From Rickettsiales bacterium (GTDB lineage Bacteria > Pseudomonadota > Alphaproteobacteria > Rs-D84): a DNA stretch of 36,088 bases. Every line of letters starts with the position of its first letter. Within the stretch, counting starts at the first letter, position 1. The notes beneath the pieces were generated by a model, which was given only the letters and a program-made list of their open reading frames with translations, had not been told where the DNA came from and did no database searches. Location of the stretch: positions 1 through 36,088 of the forward strand of contig JAIRUP010000010.1 in the NCBI GenBank assembly GCA_031254335.1, in the 5' to 3' direction. This document shows, piece by piece, positions 21,255 to 32,133 of this stretch. Made by a program: the position numbers and the translations under genes.

Positions 21255-23630
21255 ATGGCGGAAAACAGAAAGACTTTGACTTTGGGGAAATCGGTGCATG
21301 TCGGCGCGGTGCAGTCGTCCAAGGGCGACGCAATCTTCGTCGAACGCAGAAAAAAAATCCTTATGCCGGGACAGCAGGAAATCAAAGACCAGGTCAAAAA
21401 GACCACCAGCGCCGTCGACGAGAAACTCCGCGCCGTTCTCGACGCCGCAAAGGAACGAGAGGCCGCACGCGCCAAGCAACAGGCCGAAGATGACGCCCAG
21501 CGCGCCCGCGTCAATCGGGAAATCGCCGCGGAACAGTCCGAATACGAGGCCGTTCGAGAACAGCTTAAAGCCCGCGAGAATTCGGGTGCTTTGGAATCCA
21601 ACAACAATATCAATTCCCACCCCGCCGCCTTCGGCGGCACCCCTCCCAAAAGGGGAATCGATTCGGATATGGACAACCGGCGCGGGAAAAAGCGCGGCGG
21701 GCACAACCAAAACCAGGACGCCGCAAGCTTCAAGGGCAGAATTTCCGTCCGCGACATCGTCATGAATTCCGACGAGGGCGACATGGAGGTAAGGAACCAG
21801 AACCGCCGCCGTTCCGACGCCGCAATGAAACGATTCCGCGACAAACAAAATCAGGCCTTCAACGCGGGCGCGAAGGTAGAGCGCGAGGTCGCCCTCGGCG
21901 ATTCAATCGTCGTAAAAGACCTTGCGGACAGGCTTGGCGAAAAAATCGGAAATGTCGTCAAAAAACTTATGGGAATGGGCGTCGTCGCCAGCCAAAACCA
22001 GACCATCGACGCCGACACCGCGGAACTTCTTGCGCTGGAATTCGGCGCGAAGGTCAAACGCGTATCCGTCGTGCCGCACGAGGACCAGCTCAACCTTTCC
22101 CCCGACCCGTCAAAAATGACGCGCAAAGCCCCCGTCGTAACCATCATGGGACATGTCGACCATGGAAAGACTTCGCTTTTGGACGCGCTGCGCCAGACCA
22201 ATGTCGCAATGGGCGAGGCCGGCGGAATAACACAGCACATCGCCGCATACGAGGTCGCAACCGCAAGCGGCAAGACCATAACCTTCCTCGACACTCCCGG
22301 CCACGAGACCTTTTCCGCCATGCGCGCCCGCGGAGCCATGATTACGGACATCGTCGTTCTTGTCGTCGCCGCGAACGATTCAATCATGCCACAGACCGTC
22401 GAGGCCATAAACCACATCAAGGCCGCGAAAGTTCCCATGATTGTCGCCATAAACAAAATAGATTTGCCCGACGCAAATCCGCAGAAAGTCAAGACCGACC
22501 TTTTGACGCACGAGATTCAAGTCGAGGACCTTGGCGGCGAGATTTTATGCGCCGAGATTTCCGCCACCAAAAAAATCGGGCTGGACAGACTTGAAGAGCT
22601 GATTCTCACCCAGGCCGAAATGCTCGACCTTAAAGCCGACATGGACATACCCGCGCGCGCCTCTGTCGTCGAGGCGAAAGTCGAAAAAGGCCTTGGTTCC
22701 ACATCCACAATTTTAATGCAGCAGGGCAATCTTTCCATCGGCGACGCATTCGTTTGCGGAAAGACCTTCGGCCGCGTGCGCGCCATCATCAATTCGTTCG
22801 GCGCGCGGGTAAAATCCATCGTCGCCGGCCAGCCCGCAATCGTCCTTGGGTTCGAGGAGCTTCCTTTCGCGGGCGACGACTTCAAGGGAATGGACACGGA
22901 GCAGGCCGCGCGCGATGTGGCCTATTACCGCCTGCACCGCGAAAAGGAAATCGCGGGCCTTGCCAAAAAATCCACGCTCGAAGAACTGTTCGCAAAGAAG
23001 GAAGACGGCAAGAAGGTCGCGCTTCCCATCGTTCTTAAAGCCGATGTGCAGGGTTCGGTCGAGGCCTTGCGCGACATGATTAACAAAATCGGCACAGACA
23101 AGGCCGAGGTTCAGATACTTGGCGCCGGGGTCGGCGCCATTTCCGAAGGAGATGTCCGCCTTGCCATCGCAAGCCGCGCCGTCATAGTCGCATTCAATGT
23201 CCGCGCCGACGCGTCCGTCCGCGAAATCGTGCGCGCCAACAATGTCGACATCCGCTATCATTCCGTCGTTTATCACATAACCGACGAACTACGCGACATT
23301 TTGGCCGGAAAATTGGAGCCGATTCGCCGCGAGAATTTCGTGGGATACGCCGATGTCATCGCGCTTTTCACCGTCGGAAAGGGGACCCGCGTCGCGGGCT
23401 GCCGCATGACCGAGGGATACATCAAAAAGGATTCGCTTGTCCGTCTTTTGCGCGACGGGGTTGTCGTTTATGACGGAAAGCTGGCCGAGCTTCGCCGCGA
23501 GAAGAACGAGGTCAAGGAAGTGTCCGGCGCGGGGGTGGAATTCGGAATGTCGTTCGACAATTACAACGACCTGAAAATCGGCGACAAGGTGGAAGCCTAT
23601 GAAGTCGAGATGTTGAAGGCCGCCTTATAA
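21255..23630 (+). CDS. infB: Translation initiation factor IF-2
   Basis: This 791-residue GTPase has a charged N-terminal region (about 1-215), the IF2_N-type helix segment ([25 protein letters not shown]), then the G domain with [11 protein letters not shown] near 300, [15 protein letters not shown] and NKID, and domains II to IV (for example [11 protein letters not shown] and [12 protein letters not shown]). It positions initiator tRNA on the 30S subunit and promotes subunit joining. Repeat C3 lies in frame at about residues 120-135, in the variable N-terminal linker. The start at 21255 follows AAGGAACAGG. It is downstream of nusA as in most bacteria, but rbfA, usually next, is at 30 kb on the other strand beside lepA. 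Confidence 0.98.
21612..21660 (+). repeat. Family C repeat, copy C3, in frame inside infB
   Basis: ATTCCCACCCC, a perfect GCCGCCTTCGGCGGC hairpin, then CCCCTCCCAAAAGGGGAAT. It is translated as [17 protein letters not shown] in the IF-2 N-terminal linker. Confidence 0.87.
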
Positions 23631-23631
23631 G

Positions 23632-23801
23632 GACAAAAAATAAAAGGGGCGTCGCGTTTTCGGTCTAAAACACCGAATGACGCTTCGGAAAACAGGCCGC
23701 CGCAGGAGCGGCAAGCCTAGCCGTCGACCTGTTTTCCTTGGTCCTCGGCGTTTTATCCTCGAAAACGCGACGCCCCTAATTATTTTTTGAGGTTTATTAA
23801 T
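23632..23801 (+). repeat. Family A palindromic element, copy A5
   Basis: It begins one base after the infB stop (GACAAAAAATAAAAGG). The outer stem is the strongest of the family: GGGGCGTCGCGTTTTCG pairs with CGAAAACGCGACGCCCC. The middle arm has switched to AAAACACCGAA/CTCGGCGTTTT, and the inner arm to GAAAACAGGCCG/CGACCTGTTTTC. The apex is AGG-AGCGGCAAG-CCT. The right end is AATTATTTTTTGAGGTTTATTAA. Confidence 0.9.
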
Positions 23802-23805
23802 TATA

Positions 23806-23833
23806 TTGATAATAATTCCCGATTTGTTATAAT
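23806..23833 (+). promoter_or_regulatory. Strong promoter of the structured RNA
   Basis: TTGATA (23806-23811) and a perfect TATAAT (23828-23833) are spaced by 16 bases. Transcription would start near 23840, just before the first hairpin of the RNA. Confidence 0.7.
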
Positions 23834-23839
23834 AATTTC

Positions 23840-23996
23840 AATGCGGGCGTGTTGTCCGCACCGAGACTAGAAGACTCTATATGCACCAAAGCACTTCCTG
23901 CAATGGCAGGAGGGCGGCGAAAGCCGCGCTATCCGCTTTGGTATAGTTCTTCTAGCCTCCTGCCACTTTTCATAACAAGAAAGTGGCTTTTTCTTT
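23840..23996 (+). ncRNA. Structured RNA of unknown class, about 155 nt (sRNA or attenuator)
   Basis: A promoter, folded core and intrinsic terminator define this transcript. The 5' hairpin pairs GCGG (23843) with CCGC (23856). A long closing stem joins CTAGAAG (23867-23873), CTAT (23877-23880) and ACCAAAGC (23885-23892) to GCTTTGGT (23935-23942), ATAG (23943-23946) and CTTCTAG (23949-23955). It encloses a TCCTGC/GCAGGA hairpin (23896-23911) and a GCGGC-GAAA-GCCGC hairpin with a GNRA loop (23914-23927). GGCAGGAGG (23905-23913) is also perfectly complementary to CCTCCTGCC (23956-23964), which overlaps the terminator stem, so two exclusive folds exist. I compared it with what I remember of SRP RNA, tmRNA, 6S RNA and RNase P RNA and saw none of their signatures. 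Confidence 0.72.
23962..23996 (+). terminator. Intrinsic terminator of the structured RNA
   Basis: GCCACTTT (23962-23969) pairs perfectly with AAAGTGGC (23980-23987), with a ten-base loop, followed by TTTTTCTTT. Confidence 0.8.
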
Positions 23997-23999
23997 GCG

Positions 24000-24037
24000 A
24001 AAAAACGGGGCTCGTTTTTTATCAAGAGGCGGGCCCC
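24000..24037 (-). terminator. Likely terminator of the pilin-like operon
   Basis: On the minus strand GGGGCCCG pairs with CGAGCCCC (one G-U) around a long loop, followed by GTTTTTTCG. It is in the right orientation to end transcription of the three pilin-like genes, although it lies about 250 bases past the last stop. On the plus strand it is a hairpin just upstream of the 55-aa ORF. Confidence 0.5.
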
Positions 24038-24054
24038 GACCTTTGGAGGGAGAA

Positions 24055-24222
24055 ATGAAATCCGTCGATGTTCGGAAACTGAAATCATATGAAAGACTTG
24101 TCAAAGAAATGGAGGGTTATGTTCGCGAGACCGGTGATATGAATCTTAATTTGGAAAAATTTATGGAATGGAGGAAGAATAAGGATATTTGCAAATTGGG
24201 ATGCCGACCTTCGTCGGCATGA
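24055..24222 (+). CDS. Small 55-residue hypothetical protein
   Basis: I do not recognise this protein. It is highly charged and probably helical (MKSVDVRKLKSYERLVKEME at the start), with no membrane segment. GGAGGG lies four bases upstream of the ATG, a strong ribosome-binding site. Its last residues (CRPSSA) and stop codon are provided by family E repeat E1, so the original reading frame may have ended differently. It sits downstream of the structured RNA's terminator; read-through or antitermination would be needed to express it from that promoter. It is antisense to the presumed 3' untranslated region of the pilin-like operon. The Shine-Dalgarno and charged composition favour a real gene, but a chance frame is not excluded. 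Confidence 0.5.
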   Translation: MKSVDVRKLKSYERLVKEMEGYVRETGDMNLNLEKFMEWRKNKDICKLGCRPSSA

Positions 24223-24224
24223 CA
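24200..24224 (+). repeat. Family E repeat, copy E1
   Basis: GATGCCGACC-TTC-GTCGGCATGACA, a nearly perfect hairpin (GCCGAC/GTCGGC). It supplies the last codons and the TGA of the 55-aa ORF. The same unit is found at the end of ftsE. Confidence 0.8.
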
Positions 24225-24260
24225 GCTGAGTCGCCGGTGGCGACAATTTATTACATGGAT

Positions 24261-24291: not shown

Positions 24292-25575
24292 TTATTCCAG
24301 ACCGAGCTCGCGGTATTTTTGCTCGACCTTGCCGATTGCAGTTTGCAATGCCCGAAGGTAATCCGCAGCGGTAGCATTCGCGTTGCTTGCCACCGGCGAC
24401 AAGGCCTTATCCATTTCCGTTCCCGCGCCTTTCGCGTTTTCGCTTTTAATCACGGCGCGCATGATTCGGCCCATGTCGCTTAACATGACATCCCTCAACG
24501 CCGCGTCCTTTTCCGCAAAATCCCAATAATACGACGGGTCCGCCGAGTCCACCATGCCGCTTGCCGCCGTGAGCGATGTCGCGACCATTCCCGCGTATCC
24601 AACATTCACGACCTCGGCCGCGACGCTTCCGTTGGAAAGCCCAAGGTGCTGGCCGATTGAAAGCACGCCCTGCGCGCCGTCCTGCGGCGGGCTTATGCCT
24701 TCAAGGACCAGATTCCCCACCTTCATCCTATTCGCCTCGACCCCGCGGAACCGCCCGACATTCCCCAACAGCAGGTTCCCCCCGACCGTTATATCGCCGC
24801 CGTCGGACGCCAAATCGCCCATGACATTCGCTTCGCCCGACACAGAAAATTCCTTGTCCAGCGACACATTCTCGGCGAACGAGATATTGTCCGCCTCGGC
24901 CCATTCGACCTTCATCCGCTCCGCCACGCGGACCGAACCCGCATTCATCATTCCGATTTCGTTTATATCGTTCCCGCCCATGTCCAAGTCCGTCAGCATC
25001 GCCGAATCGAACGCGCGCCCGGAATCCACGCGATACAACCAGTCGCCCGTTTTCCAAAAGACCGGCGTTTGCGCCGCGAGCGCGTCCCCGCGGCTCGATA
25101 CATTCCACATCGCAAGCGACTGCTGCCATGTCCCGAACGAGCCGTAAAGCTGGTTCCCCGACACGAAGCCCGCCCCCTCGCCGCCTTCCATAGCGACATG
25201 GCGCGTGCGGAGCGGCGTCGTATCCGGCAATTCCGACACGACTATGCCCTGCAAATACGAATGGCCCAGATTGTCCGACACCCTGATGACGCGCGCGCGG
25301 ATATTCTTCGCCGCGCCGTCAAAACCGAACGGACCCAAGTCCCTTGGGTGAACCTGGAACACCGCGCCGCCCCGGTGCGCCGACAGTTTCTTTTCGTTCG
25401 CTTCGATATACCGCATGAGGGCGTCCCGCGCCTCGGCCAGTTTCCGGCTTTCCGCGATGGCGACCCGCGTTTCCTCGCGCCTATTAATCTGCTTGTATAT
25501 CATCGGCAGAAGCCCCATGAAGATGGCGACCATCATAAGAACTTCCACCAAAGACGCGCCCCGCTGGTTCTTCAT
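24292..25575 (-). CDS. Pilin-like PilV/shufflon-type protein, third in the operon
   Basis: The 427-residue product begins MKNQRGASLVEVLMM, a classic class III/type IV prepilin leader: cleavage after Gly6, Glu at +5, then a hydrophobic helix (VEVLMMVAIFMGLLPMIY). The following helix and the first 170 residues resemble the PilV/shufflon pilus-tip family. The rest is a series of short beta-rich modules (GGDITVGGNLLLGNVGRF, then NRMKVGNLVLEG) like those of tip adhesins and tail fibres. It would be exported, processed by a prepilin peptidase and placed at a pilus or pseudopilus tip (inference). The start at 25575 overlaps the previous stop as ATGA. No recombinase or sfx-type inversion sites are seen, so no shufflon is claimed. 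Confidence 0.72.
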   Translation of the reverse strand: MKNQRGASLVEVLMMVAIFMGLLPMIYKQINRREETRVAIAESRKLAEARDALMRYIEANEKKLSAHRGGAVFQVHPRDLGPFGFDGAAKNIRARVIRVSDNLGHSYLQGIVVSELPDTTPLRTRHVAMEGGEGAGFVSGNQLYGSFGTWQQSLAMWNVSSRGDALAAQTPVFWKTGDWLYRVDSGRAFDSAMLTDLDMGGNDINEIGMMNAGSVRVAERMKVEWAEADNISFAENVSLDKEFSVSGEANVMGDLASDGGDITVGGNLLLGNVGRFRGVEANRMKVGNLVLEGISPPQDGAQGVLSIGQHLGLSNGSVAAEVVNVGYAGMVATSLTAASGMVDSADPSYYWDFAEKDAALRDVMLSDMGRIMRAVIKSENAKGAGTEMDKALSPVASNANATAADYLRALQTAIGKVEQKYRELGLE

Positions 25576-26867
25576 TTGACTGCCTGGGCCTCCTTCCAAT
25601 TTTTCGAGCTTATTTTCTCCATCGGGTCGCGCGCGCGGTTCAGGACATCGGAGGCCGAGTCCCCGGACCACGACATTATTTTAAGAACCCTAAATTCCGG
25701 CGCGGCGTTCGCGGAGTTCGGAAACGACCAGCCGCCCAGCTTTAACGGCGGATTCAGACTATCCGCCATCTTGTCGCTTGAAACCGTAATCCCCGCCGCG
25801 CCGCCCACGGAAAGATGGCCCGCCGTGATTTGCGGCGCGGACAACGAATACGCGCTTATTTCCGCAAACGCCGACACGCTGCGCGCGAAGCCCGGTTTCA
25901 CCACAAGATTATTTCCGACGCTTAATTCCATCGACACCGTCGTTCTATCCGCTATGATTTTGCCCTGCGCGCCGTGCGACGACTCGGACAGCGCGCCGAG
26001 CCCGCCGCCAGGCGTTCCGCCGAACAGGGAGCTTGCCGTTATTTTCCGCGCGCCCACCAAATCGCCGCCGACGCGAAGCGAGTTTATAAACACCCGGTCC
26101 GGCTTCAACCGAAGGCCCTTTTGGAAGTTCGCCGAATTCGCCGACAGCAATTCCGCCGATATATGGCCCGCCGACGCGTCGTCGGCTTCCAGCCCCACGC
26201 CGGACAGATTCTTCGCGTTTATTATAGAGCTGTGCCGGCCGCCGTCCGACATCCCCAAGTCCGTTTCCATGGAATTCAATTCCGGCTGCTCGGCCACCCG
26301 CACCCTGTGCAAAAAACGCGCGCGGTCGCCGTCCAGATTATGCTCGGAAATCCTTAATACGATTCTGCCGGGTTCAAGACCCGGGATTCTCGCGGACCAT
26401 TGCCCGTTCGCGCTGTAAGCGAAGCCGCCTTCTTCCGACACCCCGCCTTCGGGCCCCAAGAGGCGCGCGAACCTGTGCGCCGACAATGCCGTAGAGCTTT
26501 CCATATCCGCGATAAGATATGCGGTCGCCGTTTTCACCCCGGCATTGGAAGTCGACTTGAATACGACCGCGCGCGGCGGCGGAAGGTTCCGGCTTTGGGT
26601 CGCGCCGAACGGCGCCAAGGTTTCAAAAAATTCTTCCGCAGGGATTTCCATTTGGTAATTGTCCGGCCACAGAGGCTCGTTAAGAGCGGTGAAATTCCGC
26701 GCCGCGTTCCCGAGCCTTGTCAAATGATTCGCGTATGCGATTTCGCGGATTTCCCTGGCGCCGCCCTCTATCTTCCCATAAAGGAACGGAGCCGATATGC
26801 CGATGATTCCAATCGTCAGTATAACATCCAGCAATGACGCGCCGCGCTCGGCCTTTCTTACGAACAT
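25572..26867 (-). CDS. Pilin-like PilV/shufflon-type protein, second in the operon
   Basis: The 431-residue product begins MFVRKAERGASLLDVILTIG: a basic leader, Gly10, then ASLLD, with Asp in place of the usual Glu at +5, and a hydrophobic helix. The body is beta-rich with repeated AGH(I/L)S modules (DASAGHISAELLSANSANF, QITAGHLSVGGAAGITVSS), similar to the third-gene product. A tip-adhesin role is inferred from the family resemblance. The start at 26867 overlaps the previous gene by ten bases; an upstream in-frame ATG would leave a leader too long for a prepilin. It has the same strand and composition as its neighbours. Confidence 0.7.
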   Translation of the reverse strand: MFVRKAERGASLLDVILTIGIIGISAPFLYGKIEGGAREIREIAYANHLTRLGNAARNFTALNEPLWPDNYQMEIPAEEFFETLAPFGATQSRNLPPPRAVVFKSTSNAGVKTATAYLIADMESSTALSAHRFARLLGPEGGVSEEGGFAYSANGQWSARIPGLEPGRIVLRISEHNLDGDRARFLHRVRVAEQPELNSMETDLGMSDGGRHSSIINAKNLSGVGLEADDASAGHISAELLSANSANFQKGLRLKPDRVFINSLRVGGDLVGARKITASSLFGGTPGGGLGALSESSHGAQGKIIADRTTVSMELSVGNNLVVKPGFARSVSAFAEISAYSLSAPQITAGHLSVGGAAGITVSSDKMADSLNPPLKLGGWSFPNSANAAPEFRVLKIMSWSGDSASDVLNRARDPMEKISSKNWKEAQAVK

Positions 26868-28306
26868 TTCGACGGGTCCCCGCCCTGCATAAGGCATTTC
26901 TTCATATCGATTCTTTTTTCCAGCCGCGCGTAGCGAGCATAGAGGCACGCCGCATGCTGCGACAGGCTGCGGCTGTCGTATTTTTGGCCCAGATTCTCCA
27001 TCAGCGATTTGCAGGAAACCGCGCCGCCGCCGTCGTCCGCCGCCGACACCGGAATCAGGATGCCGTCGTTGTTTATTCCTTCCAGCCGCAAATCCGGCAG
27101 CTGGGATGTTCCGTTAAGCCTTATCGAAACCAGGGTCGGCGCATTGTCCGAATTCGCCGAAAGCATTCTCGCCGTCTGGTCTTTCACCGTTATATGCCCC
27201 GCCGACACAGAGTCCGCGTATATCCCCGAGCGCGGCAGGGTCAGCAAATCGTCATAGAATATATTCGAATCCGAAGTTATTTCCGCGACCCCGGATATAT
27301 TCATGACCGCGACGCCGCTTAACGCCGTATTGCTAAGCTCGGCATTGCCGCCGACGCTCCACTTCGCGGGGCCATAGAACGACGCCGCGCCCGGCGACTG
27401 GTGGTAATCCAAGACCGAGATGAAATCAACTTCCAGATTCGCCGCGCTTCCGCCGATGGACGATATGTCCCGGACTTCGAGCGAATTCGCCGCAAGCGTC
27501 CCGCGCGAGACATTAAGCGGCGCTTCCGCCGCGCTTACGCTTTGGAACGACGCGCTTTTCGTCGCAAGAGATTCGATTTCGTTTTTGTTCTTGTCCTCTT
27601 CCGCCCCCGAAACCAGGACGCGCATGAAGAAGCCCGCGTCGAATTCCGCCGCGCCCGCGTTCGCGGACCCCGCGCCCGTTATATTGTTGTAGAGCATATC
27701 GATATCCGCATTCATCGCGTTCTTTTCAGGATTCCGCGATTTCCGCGCGAGAAATTCCGACATTTCGGCCTCGAGCGGGATTCGGACGAATATGCCGTCC
27801 GCCGCCGGCGCGAATCCGAACGCGCTTTTCGTATCGAGTTCCCAGTCGCCGGTCGCGCCCGACAATTTTCCATCCGACGCCGTCGCGCCCCAAAAACCGA
27901 TTCTTTGCGCGATTTCAGCCCGGCGGGTTTCGCTTAGCGCGCCGCCGCTTACTTCTATGAGCGGAATCGTTTCGTCCGGATTCCGGAGAAGCACGACCCT
28001 TATGTCCTGGCCGAGCGGCGTCCTTGGATTCCAGCCGATTGGGAGGCCGTATGCCTCGAATGTTTGGTTTATTTTCGCCGATTCGATTTTATCGACGCCC
28101 AATGGAATTTTTTCATAGTTCTCGCGCGCCCAGGCCGAGGCCGCGGCGTAAAGGGAGTCAATCTGCCGAGATACCGCCGCATTTTCCGCGGATAAAGCGC
28201 GGTTAGCCAGCTTGCCAAGGAGAGTTGGCATGAAAGCTATGACTAAACTTAGCATAAGCAGGGCCTCGAACATAAAGCGGCCAAGCTCGCTTTTTATGCG
28301 CGGCAT
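26858..28306 (-). CDS. Pilin-like protein with beta-rich body and cysteine-containing tail, first in the operon
   Basis: The 482-residue product starts MPRIKSELGRFMFEALLML: leader, Gly9, then RFMFE with Glu at +5, and a hydrophobic helix (EALLMLSLVIAFMPTLLG). The N-terminal third is helical (AVSRQIDSLYAAASAWARENYEK), as in pilins. The middle has beta modules such as DSVSAGHITVKD, also found in the second gene. The last 60 residues carry four cysteines (SCKSLMEN, HAACLYAR, KKCLMQGG, SKCS), absent from the other two, perhaps disulfide-linked after export. GGGGGAG lies upstream of the ATG. The gene follows a candidate promoter whose -35 box lies in repeat D3. Confidence 0.68.
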   Translation of the reverse strand: MPRIKSELGRFMFEALLMLSLVIAFMPTLLGKLANRALSAENAAVSRQIDSLYAAASAWARENYEKIPLGVDKIESAKINQTFEAYGLPIGWNPRTPLGQDIRVVLLRNPDETIPLIEVSGGALSETRRAEIAQRIGFWGATASDGKLSGATGDWELDTKSAFGFAPAADGIFVRIPLEAEMSEFLARKSRNPEKNAMNADIDMLYNNITGAGSANAGAAEFDAGFFMRVLVSGAEEDKNKNEIESLATKSASFQSVSAAEAPLNVSRGTLAANSLEVRDISSIGGSAANLEVDFISVLDYHQSPGAASFYGPAKWSVGGNAELSNTALSGVAVMNISGVAEITSDSNIFYDDLLTLPRSGIYADSVSAGHITVKDQTARMLSANSDNAPTLVSIRLNGTSQLPDLRLEGINNDGILIPVSAADDGGGAVSCKSLMENLGQKYDSRSLSQHAACLYARYARLEKRIDMKKCLMQGGDPSKCS

Positions 28307-31299: not shown

Positions 31300-32133
31300 A
31301 TGAACAATAACTTTTTGGATTTGCCGGAGGAGAAGGCCCGCGCGCCCCAGCGGAACATAATCTCGTTTTCCGAAGTCGGCGTTCGATACGGAAAAAATCC
31401 CGAAATCATTTCCGACGCATCGTTCGGAATCAGCGACAAGTCCTTCTTCTTCCTGACCGGCGCGTCAGGCGCGGGAAAGACTTCCCTTATGCGCCTTATC
31501 AACATGACCCACGCCCAGTCCCGCGGAGTCGTCAAAATATTCGGCCGGAACACAAAGACCCTGAGCCGCGACGAGATTTCCAACCTGCGCCGCAGAATCG
31601 GATTCGTGTTCCAGGACTATTGCCTTATCAACACCATGACCGTTTTCGACAATGTCGCCCTGCCGCTTGCCGCGCGCGGCGAGGACAAGGCCAAGACGCG
31701 CCGCCTGGTCATGCGGATTCTTGAATGGATTGGGCTTGCCGCCGCCGCAAACGCATATCCGCTGAACCTTTCCGGCGGACAGCAGCAGCGCGTCGCAATC
31801 GCGCGCGCCGTCGTGTCCCGGCCGGACATCCTTCTCGCCGACGAGCCGACCGGCAACCTGGACGAGGAGAACGAAAAAAAGCTGATGGACCTTTTCGTCA
31901 AACTGAACCGCGCGGGGACCGCCGTCATATTCGCGACCCACAGCAGGAAACTTCTTGAATCATACGACTATCCCCAGATTCACATCGAGAACAGGCATGT
32001 AAGCCTTAGGAAGGAAAAATTTTCCGGCGCGCCGAAAAGAAACCCGTTCGAGAATGTGTTCAAGGGGTTTAATAATGATATTTTACAAAAGGAGATGCCG
32101 ACCTTCGTCGGCATGACAAAGAATAATGATTAA
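31300..32133 (+). CDS. ftsE: Cell-division ATP-binding protein FtsE
   Basis: This 277-residue ABC ATPase has Walker A GASGAGKT (54-61), Q loop FQDYCL, signature LSGGQQQR, Walker B ILLADEPTGNLD and H loop ATHS. With FtsX it forms the inner-membrane complex that controls periplasmic peptidoglycan hydrolases during division. It has about 20 extra residues at the N-terminus and 40 at the C-terminus compared with typical FtsE (about 220-230). The final residues MPTFVGMTKNND come from repeat E2. The start has GGAG six bases upstream. It overlaps ftsX by eight bases. Confidence 0.95.
   Translation: MNNNFLDLPEEKARAPQRNIISFSEVGVRYGKNPEIISDASFGISDKSFFFLTGASGAGKTSLMRLINMTHAQSRGVVKIFGRNTKTLSRDEISNLRRRIGFVFQDYCLINTMTVFDNVALPLAARGEDKAKTRRLVMRILEWIGLAAAANAYPLNLSGGQQQRVAIARAVVSRPDILLADEPTGNLDEENEKKLMDLFVKLNRAGTAVIFATHSRKLLESYDYPQIHIENRHVSLRKEKFSGAPKRNPFENVFKGFNNDILQKEMPTFVGMTKNND
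32094..32118 (+). repeat. Family E repeat, copy E2, forming the ftsE C-terminus
   Basis: GATGCCGACC-TTC-GTCGGCATGACA, identical in its core to E1. Here the frame is shifted relative to E1, so ATGA is read through as part of GMT and the gene ends 18 bases later. Confidence 0.85.

Follow-up and report, generated by a model that had tools for sequence, protein, structure and literature searches.

A multicopy RNA family of gut Alphaproteobacteria with the features of a transcription attenuator ahead of surface and secreted protein genes

The window, that is, the whole stretch of 36,088 nucleotides analysed here (contig JAIRUP010000010.1 of a Rickettsiales bacterium), carries 3′ of infB (21255-23630) a strong promoter, a highly structured RNA and an intrinsic terminator, which together occupy positions 23806-23992. 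The parts of this copy and the nearest downstream open reading frame (ORF) are the following, with the kind of evidence in brackets.

23806..23833, plus strand: sigma-70-type promoter, TTGATA-16-TATAAT with TG ahead of the -10 (11 of 12 consensus positions)
23842..23860, plus strand: P0 hairpin at the extreme 5′ end of the transcript (predicted fold; other copies by eye)
23863..23877, plus strand: P1a hairpin GAG...CTC, its loop carrying the PK1 5′ strand (sequence; copies)
23867..23874, plus strand: PK1 5′ strand CTAGAAGA, partner 23948-23955 (copy-specific complementarity, z = 21.6)
23885..23892, plus strand: PK2 5′ strand ACCAAAGC, partner the P5 loop at 23935-23942 (copy-specific complementarity, z = 25.2)
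23894..23901, plus strand: P3 5′ strand CTTCCTGC, the anti-antiterminator strand (partner 23906-23913)
23905..23913, plus strand: shared strand GGCAGGAGG, 3′ half of P3 or 5′ half of the antiterminator helix (three-way lock-step covariation, also in the second order)
23914..23927, plus strand: P4 hairpin GCGGC-GAAA-GCCGC with a GAAA loop (covariation)
23929..23946, plus strand: P5 hairpin CTAT/ATAG, its loop carrying the PK2 3′ strand (covariation)
23948..23955, plus strand: PK1 3′ strand TCTTCTAG, adjoining the antiterminator 3′ strand (copy-specific complementarity)
23956..23964, plus strand: CCTCCTGCC, 3′ half of the antiterminator helix, its last three bases also forming the base of the terminator stem (exact complement, covariation)
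23962..23992, plus strand: intrinsic terminator GCCACTTTT...GAAAGTGGC TTTTT (stem-loop 23962-23987, then the T run)
24045..24222, plus strand: Shine-Dalgarno GGAGGG and 55-aa ORF (24055-24222), the nearest downstream ORF (orphan, doubtful coding status)

The near-consensus promoter and the intrinsic terminator that a first-pass annotation of this DNA had described are both present. The perfect pairing that it had proposed between 23905-23913 and 23956-23964 holds as well: GGCAGGAGG and CCTCCTGCC are exact complements, and their pairing overlaps both P3 and the foot of the terminator hairpin. For the 161-nt RNA, the folding energy is -73.3 kcal/mol, versus -45.8 ± 3.6 for shuffled sequences (z = -7.7; 0/200). 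The GNRA hairpin of that annotation is P4, and homologues correct its "long closing stem" to two separate pseudoknots, PK1 and PK2.

The interval that separates infB from the promoter of the RNA contains a MITE-like element of about 159 bp with strong self-complementarity (23632-23790). It is a dispersed repeat, with 32 matches in its own genome, 23 in a second genome of the genus (G002), small numbers in two further members of the genus and zero in 26 other relatives. On the other side of the RNA, a G+C-rich hairpin (GGGGCTCG...CGGGCCCC, 24006-24040) intervenes between the terminator and the Shine-Dalgarno sequence, so that the ORF begins 62 nt past the terminator, and not at the distance of about 26 nt seen across the family. 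No relatives of the 55-aa ORF were found in 40 related genomes, and its final codons extend into a short dispersed repeat, which makes its coding status doubtful. Of the earlier suggestion that the RNA controls this ORF, the ORF and its Shine-Dalgarno sequence are there, but a specific service to an ORF unique to this genome is questionable. This repeat is short and palindromic (GGGATGCCGACCTTCGTCGGCATGA), supplies the C-terminal codons of the ORF, is present at 24179-24225 and 32071-32118, and has about a dozen copies genome-wide. Further downstream, on the minus strand (24292-28306), three consecutive large ORFs of 459, 458 and 482 aa share similar, repetitive bodies and prepilin-like N-terminal segments (GASLVEVLMMVAIFMG, GASLLDVILTIGIIGI and GRFMFEALLMLSLVIA); judging from these features, they form a tandem family of pilin-like proteins.

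The RNA is not confined to this locus. A DNA search of its own genome (749,938 bases) uncovered diverged copies elsewhere, each with promoter, hairpins and terminator, and close copies occur in metagenome-assembled genomes (MAGs) of termite-gut Alphaproteobacteria. The first pattern search demanded an exact GGCAGGAGG/CCTCCTGCC motif, to which any variation of that helix is invisible; because of this bias, the covariance model R1, based on 19 copies, was made with the GGCAGGAGG:CCUCCUGCC helix purposely left out. Copy numbers obtained with the covariance models derive from a short calibration with rough E-values and mostly from MAGs; on this basis, R1 located at least 6 copies in the own genome (0.75 Mb), 24 in a single-contig genome of 1.0 Mb (G035) and 57 in another (G005). 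Every one of the 60 family genomes sampled carries the RNA, the maximum being 57 copies in one genome. It is also present in 87 of the 96 genomes drawn from the order and, by a second model (R2), in 40 of 43 from a second order, where the maximum is again 57. A class-wide search recovered it from 15 of 289 genomes, among which several families from beyond the order are represented. Across the phylum (349 genomes), the search returned two known family members and three weak matches beyond the class (E about 2e-4 to 8e-4), which were taken as chance. This near absence from other genomes shows the specificity of the model. What had been noticed as a single element is thus confirmed as a multicopy family, much larger in scope than originally stated.

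No Rfam 15 family reached its gathering threshold for the window or for nine diverse relatives, and among 20 loci of other families and orders only tRNAs were matched; the hit to a known family that the first-pass annotation had set down as speaking against its reading was thus not found, and its statement that the RNA fits no class it knew is borne out. The nearest approach was to sRNA-Xcc1 (RF02221), with which the closing pair GGCAGGAGG...CCUCCUGCC aligns weakly; at 23.7 bits against a gathering score of 53 (E = 0.11 for a 601-base query), this amounts to chance. The RNA appeared undescribed in a literature search whose coverage excluded preprints, most subscription journals and the motif lists of a human-microbiome structured-RNA survey (PMC8040213). 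The window RNA had no matches in phage and plasmid collections, and the GGCAGGAGG form had none in viral contigs. The GGTTGGAGG form matched three viral contigs from IMG/VR (L201, L202 and L203), where the RNA sits just beyond P2-like prophage tail genes and is followed by exported-protein genes; these copies probably represent host flanks of integrated prophages, and a phage element was rejected as far as could be seen from them.

Covariation strongly supports a switch. An alignment of 113 rows (110 distinct; A4) was fitted to P3, P4, P5 and the terminator. These helices show standard pairs in 95.0% of cells, and double changes in 554 cells, versus 164 ± 13 after shuffling. Individually, P3 is paired in 96.2% of cells, P4 in 97.2% (all five pairs vary on both strands), P5 in 99.5% (compensatory changes in 4 of 4 pairs) and the terminator in 90.7% (8 of 9 pairs vary on both strands), each across 110 copies. 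The antiterminator helix, which is absent from the aligning model, is nevertheless paired in 95.6% of cells, with 101 double-change cells versus 40.6 ± 3.5 after shuffling and never more than 10 when one strand is slid along the other. In the other orders it is paired in 98.2% of cells, and double changes number 51 versus 11.5 ± 4.0. The shuffle controls retain relatedness among the copies, and the slid controls and the separate orders agree with them. Variant antiterminator pairs include GGUUGGAGG:CCUCCAACC, GGUCAGGAGG:CCUCCUGACC, GGCGGGAGA:UCUCCCGCC and GGUUGGAGU:ACUCCAACC, as well as GGCAGGAAG:CUUCCUGCC and GGGCGGAUG:CAUCCGCCC in other orders. At the central position of P3, the shared strand and the antiterminator strand, the triplet among 109 copies reads U-A-U in 51, A-U-A in 44, C-G-C in 3 and G-C-G in 1. 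Such lock-step change of three strands is the expected signature of mutually exclusive helices, and it points to a terminator and an antiterminator helix that exclude one another and are both conserved. The stems are thus maintained by compensatory changes in relatives, the comparison that the first-pass annotation had proposed.

Two more pairings were analysed by comparing, in 99 non-redundant copies, the complementarity of each copy's own partner strand with that of the partners of other copies. PK1 (23867-23874:23948-23955) joins the loop of the 5′ hairpin to the segment before the antiterminator strand (z = 21.6), and PK2 (23885-23892:23935-23942) joins the segment 3′ of that hairpin to the P5 loop (z = 25.2). 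These copy-specific values support PK1 and PK2 as long-range pairings kept as pseudoknots across the family. PK1 abuts the antiterminator helix with zero gap in almost all copies. The P1a hairpin retains a 4-bp stem in 87% of the 99 copies (own 8.5 versus swapped 6.7 ± 0.3), and at the position of P0 the other copies, read by eye, have a hairpin with an altered stem sequence. The apical region of P4 reads GAAUAU..GAAUAAG in most copies; in other orders it forms an internal loop, AAUAA(G)/GAAUA(U), that a true apical stem caps, and in the own genus P4 often ends in a plain GNRA loop. Since this plain loop replaces the conserved one in 4 of 6 copies of the own genome, the P4 loop is an unlikely ligand pocket, and the region may rather serve as a tertiary docking element.

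Among 99 copies, a TATAAT-like box is exact in 47 and matches 5 of 6 positions in 36, and the PK1 5′ strand follows it at a median distance of 39 nt (IQR 38-40). A Shine-Dalgarno-led ORF of at least 40 aa starts within 120 nt past the terminator in 66 of 96 copies (69%), versus 11.7% at random positions. The median distance from terminator to ORF start is 26 nt, and 59% of starts fall at 12-45 nt (control, 3.8%). In other orders, 35 of 43 copies have such a Shine-Dalgarno-led ORF within 150 nt; about 30% of copies have no obvious near ORF. The RNA lies, then, in the 5′ leader of downstream ORFs. By a crude hydrophobicity rule, 32 of 37 downstream ORFs of at least 100 aa (86%) have signal-peptide-like N-termini, versus 44 of 224 (20%) in the background. 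Other downstream products include HTH_3/HTH_31-type regulators and a trypsin-like protease (Pfam, run on ten downstream proteins, returned HTH, trypsin-like or nothing). In other orders, reading of the sequences alone suggests lipoproteins, beta-barrel-like outer-membrane proteins, prepilins (GRSMVEM), glycosyltransferases and an HTH protein. These genes are diverse, and no single metabolite is indicated by them.

These data bear on two rival explanations. The first-pass annotation had offered as an alternative a stand-alone sRNA acting in trans on Shine-Dalgarno sequences through CCUCCU, to which the downstream ORFs would be incidental. Cuckoo/CcsR-type and other alphaproteobacterial anti-Shine-Dalgarno sRNAs are indeed multicopy, structured, CCUCC-containing RNAs with a terminator, and the RNA described here resembles them in having its own promoter and terminator in each copy, in the frequency of CCUCC across the family and in the fraction of copies with no near ORF. 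However, its CCUCC is neither invariant nor independent of internal pairing, changing to CUUCC, CAUCC, ACUCC or UCUCC together with the internal partner, and ORFs start about 26 nt past the terminator far above chance, as in a leader and not a free sRNA. This alternative is accordingly very unlikely. A dispersed mobile or repeat element of the MITE or REP type, with promoter and terminator present by coincidence, would explain the many copies per genome and the occasional tandem ones (contig C4 of G005; locus L020). Against it, sequence-divergent copies keep their structure through compensatory changes, the promoter distance and the position ahead of a Shine-Dalgarno-led ORF are fixed, and the neighbouring repeat at 23632-23790 behaves differently, being confined to the genus; such an origin is highly unlikely.

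In our reading, the RNA is very probably an undescribed class of cis-acting, switch-like leader, a riboswitch-like transcription attenuator of the surface and secreted proteome. The attenuator or riboswitch logic anticipated in the first-pass annotation thus gains weight from the three-way covariation in 110 copies, its repetition in a second order and the position upstream of Shine-Dalgarno-led ORFs. Computation establishes the promoter, the family with its two exclusive helices and its pseudoknots, and the location ahead of ORFs, while transcription, read-through and a ligand with its identity are matters of inference. Each copy would be transcribed from its own promoter into an RNA of about 150 nt folding as P0, P1a, P3, P4 and P5 plus PK1 and PK2, with the transcription switch in its 3′ half. 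In the OFF state, P3 would form and free the CCUCC..CC segment, so that the terminator forms and the RNA of about 150 nt is released. In the ON state, GGCAGGAGG would pair with CCUCCUGCC, breaking P3 and the base of the terminator and allowing RNA polymerase to read into the gene. A common signal, most likely a ligand of the pseudoknotted 5′ domain, could bias this choice at many loci together and thereby set the output of exported and surface proteins, prepilins and small DNA-binding regulators. When energies are computed for nested pairs only, the terminated fold is preferred by 9.5 kcal/mol (median); as pseudoknots go unscored in this calculation, the antiterminated state may be underestimated. 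OFF is therefore the likely default, and the signal would favour read-through. The abutment of PK1 on the antiterminator helix makes us lean towards a folded 5′ domain that stabilises this helix, with the signal present in the ON state.

In its boldest form, which seems to us about evenly balanced between right and wrong, this reading makes the RNA a riboswitch of a new class. Its aptamer would be built on a double pseudoknot, and it would switch exported and surface proteins genome-wide in reduced-genome, host-associated Alphaproteobacteria, in response to a signal not known to be sensed by RNA. Possible, if somewhat improbable, is a sub-case that overlaps with the general attenuator reading, in which the trigger of the same attenuator would be a protein acting in trans, a factor for processive antitermination, temperature or another RNA. 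The three-way exclusive helices are compatible with any trigger, the regulated genes share a cell-surface theme and not a pathway, and the P4 loop is replaceable by GNRA like a docking element. On the other hand, the 5′ domain of the RNA is long and tightly packed, and both pseudoknots are conserved; RNAs that bind ligands show such features more typically than simple protein sites do.

Among the closest known systems are attenuation riboswitches of the antiterminator/anti-antiterminator type, with which the RNA shares a complex 5′ domain, exclusive P3, antiterminator and terminator helices, a near downstream ORF and occurrence at several loci. It differs from them in belonging to no Rfam class, in its unusually high number of copies (20-57 in genomes of about 1 Mb) and in preceding exported and surface protein genes instead of one pathway. 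T-box leaders (RF00230) likewise occur in many copies per genome and choose between terminator and antiterminator, but RF00230 was unmatched and the downstream genes are not aminoacyl-tRNA synthetase or amino-acid genes. The c-di-GMP riboswitches (GEMM) also control surface, pilus and secreted genes at multiple loci; they were set aside for want of an Rfam match, and c-di-GMP itself is unlikely because a search for GGDEF domains, positive in control genomes, found none in 24 RNA-bearing genomes of the family. A type III toxin-antitoxin RNA, which would consist of tandem repeats ahead of a gene for a ToxN-like nuclease, was rejected on account of the single unit before the terminator and the Pfam results for the ten downstream proteins. 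As for a trp-type leader peptide, P0 opens the RNA in most copies, and no Shine-Dalgarno-led start was obvious by eye.

The RNA, previously uncatalogued, spans whole orders of animal-gut Alphaproteobacteria. Such reduced-genome bacteria are expected to retain little regulation, and in some genomes of about 1 Mb this single class precedes 20-57 genes, making it a candidate master switch for what uncultured symbionts or parasites display to their surroundings. Should a metabolite be sensed, the class would offer a direct handle on that signal together with a compact new aptamer. Its size (hundreds of copies) makes structure, ligand and regulon testable at once.

Several individual loci deserve mention. 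In two other genera, copies L023 (G010) and L026 (G004) adjoin the 3′ end of infB and are oriented towards it, as a result of either a shared insertion neighbourhood or old synteny. Copy L163 (G000:C6:13931-14036) is degenerate: its TATAAT box abuts P3 directly and the 5′ pseudoknot domain is missing. At L020, the second of the two tandem copies is without its 5′ half. Finally, at L018, L020, L023, L026, L053 and L014, in several termite-gut genomes, the RNA is followed by proteins of 55-75 aa with the pattern EIMND..N..AI.FIKKYL.EC..RNK.L and without a confident Pfam match, which appear to constitute an undescribed small protein family.
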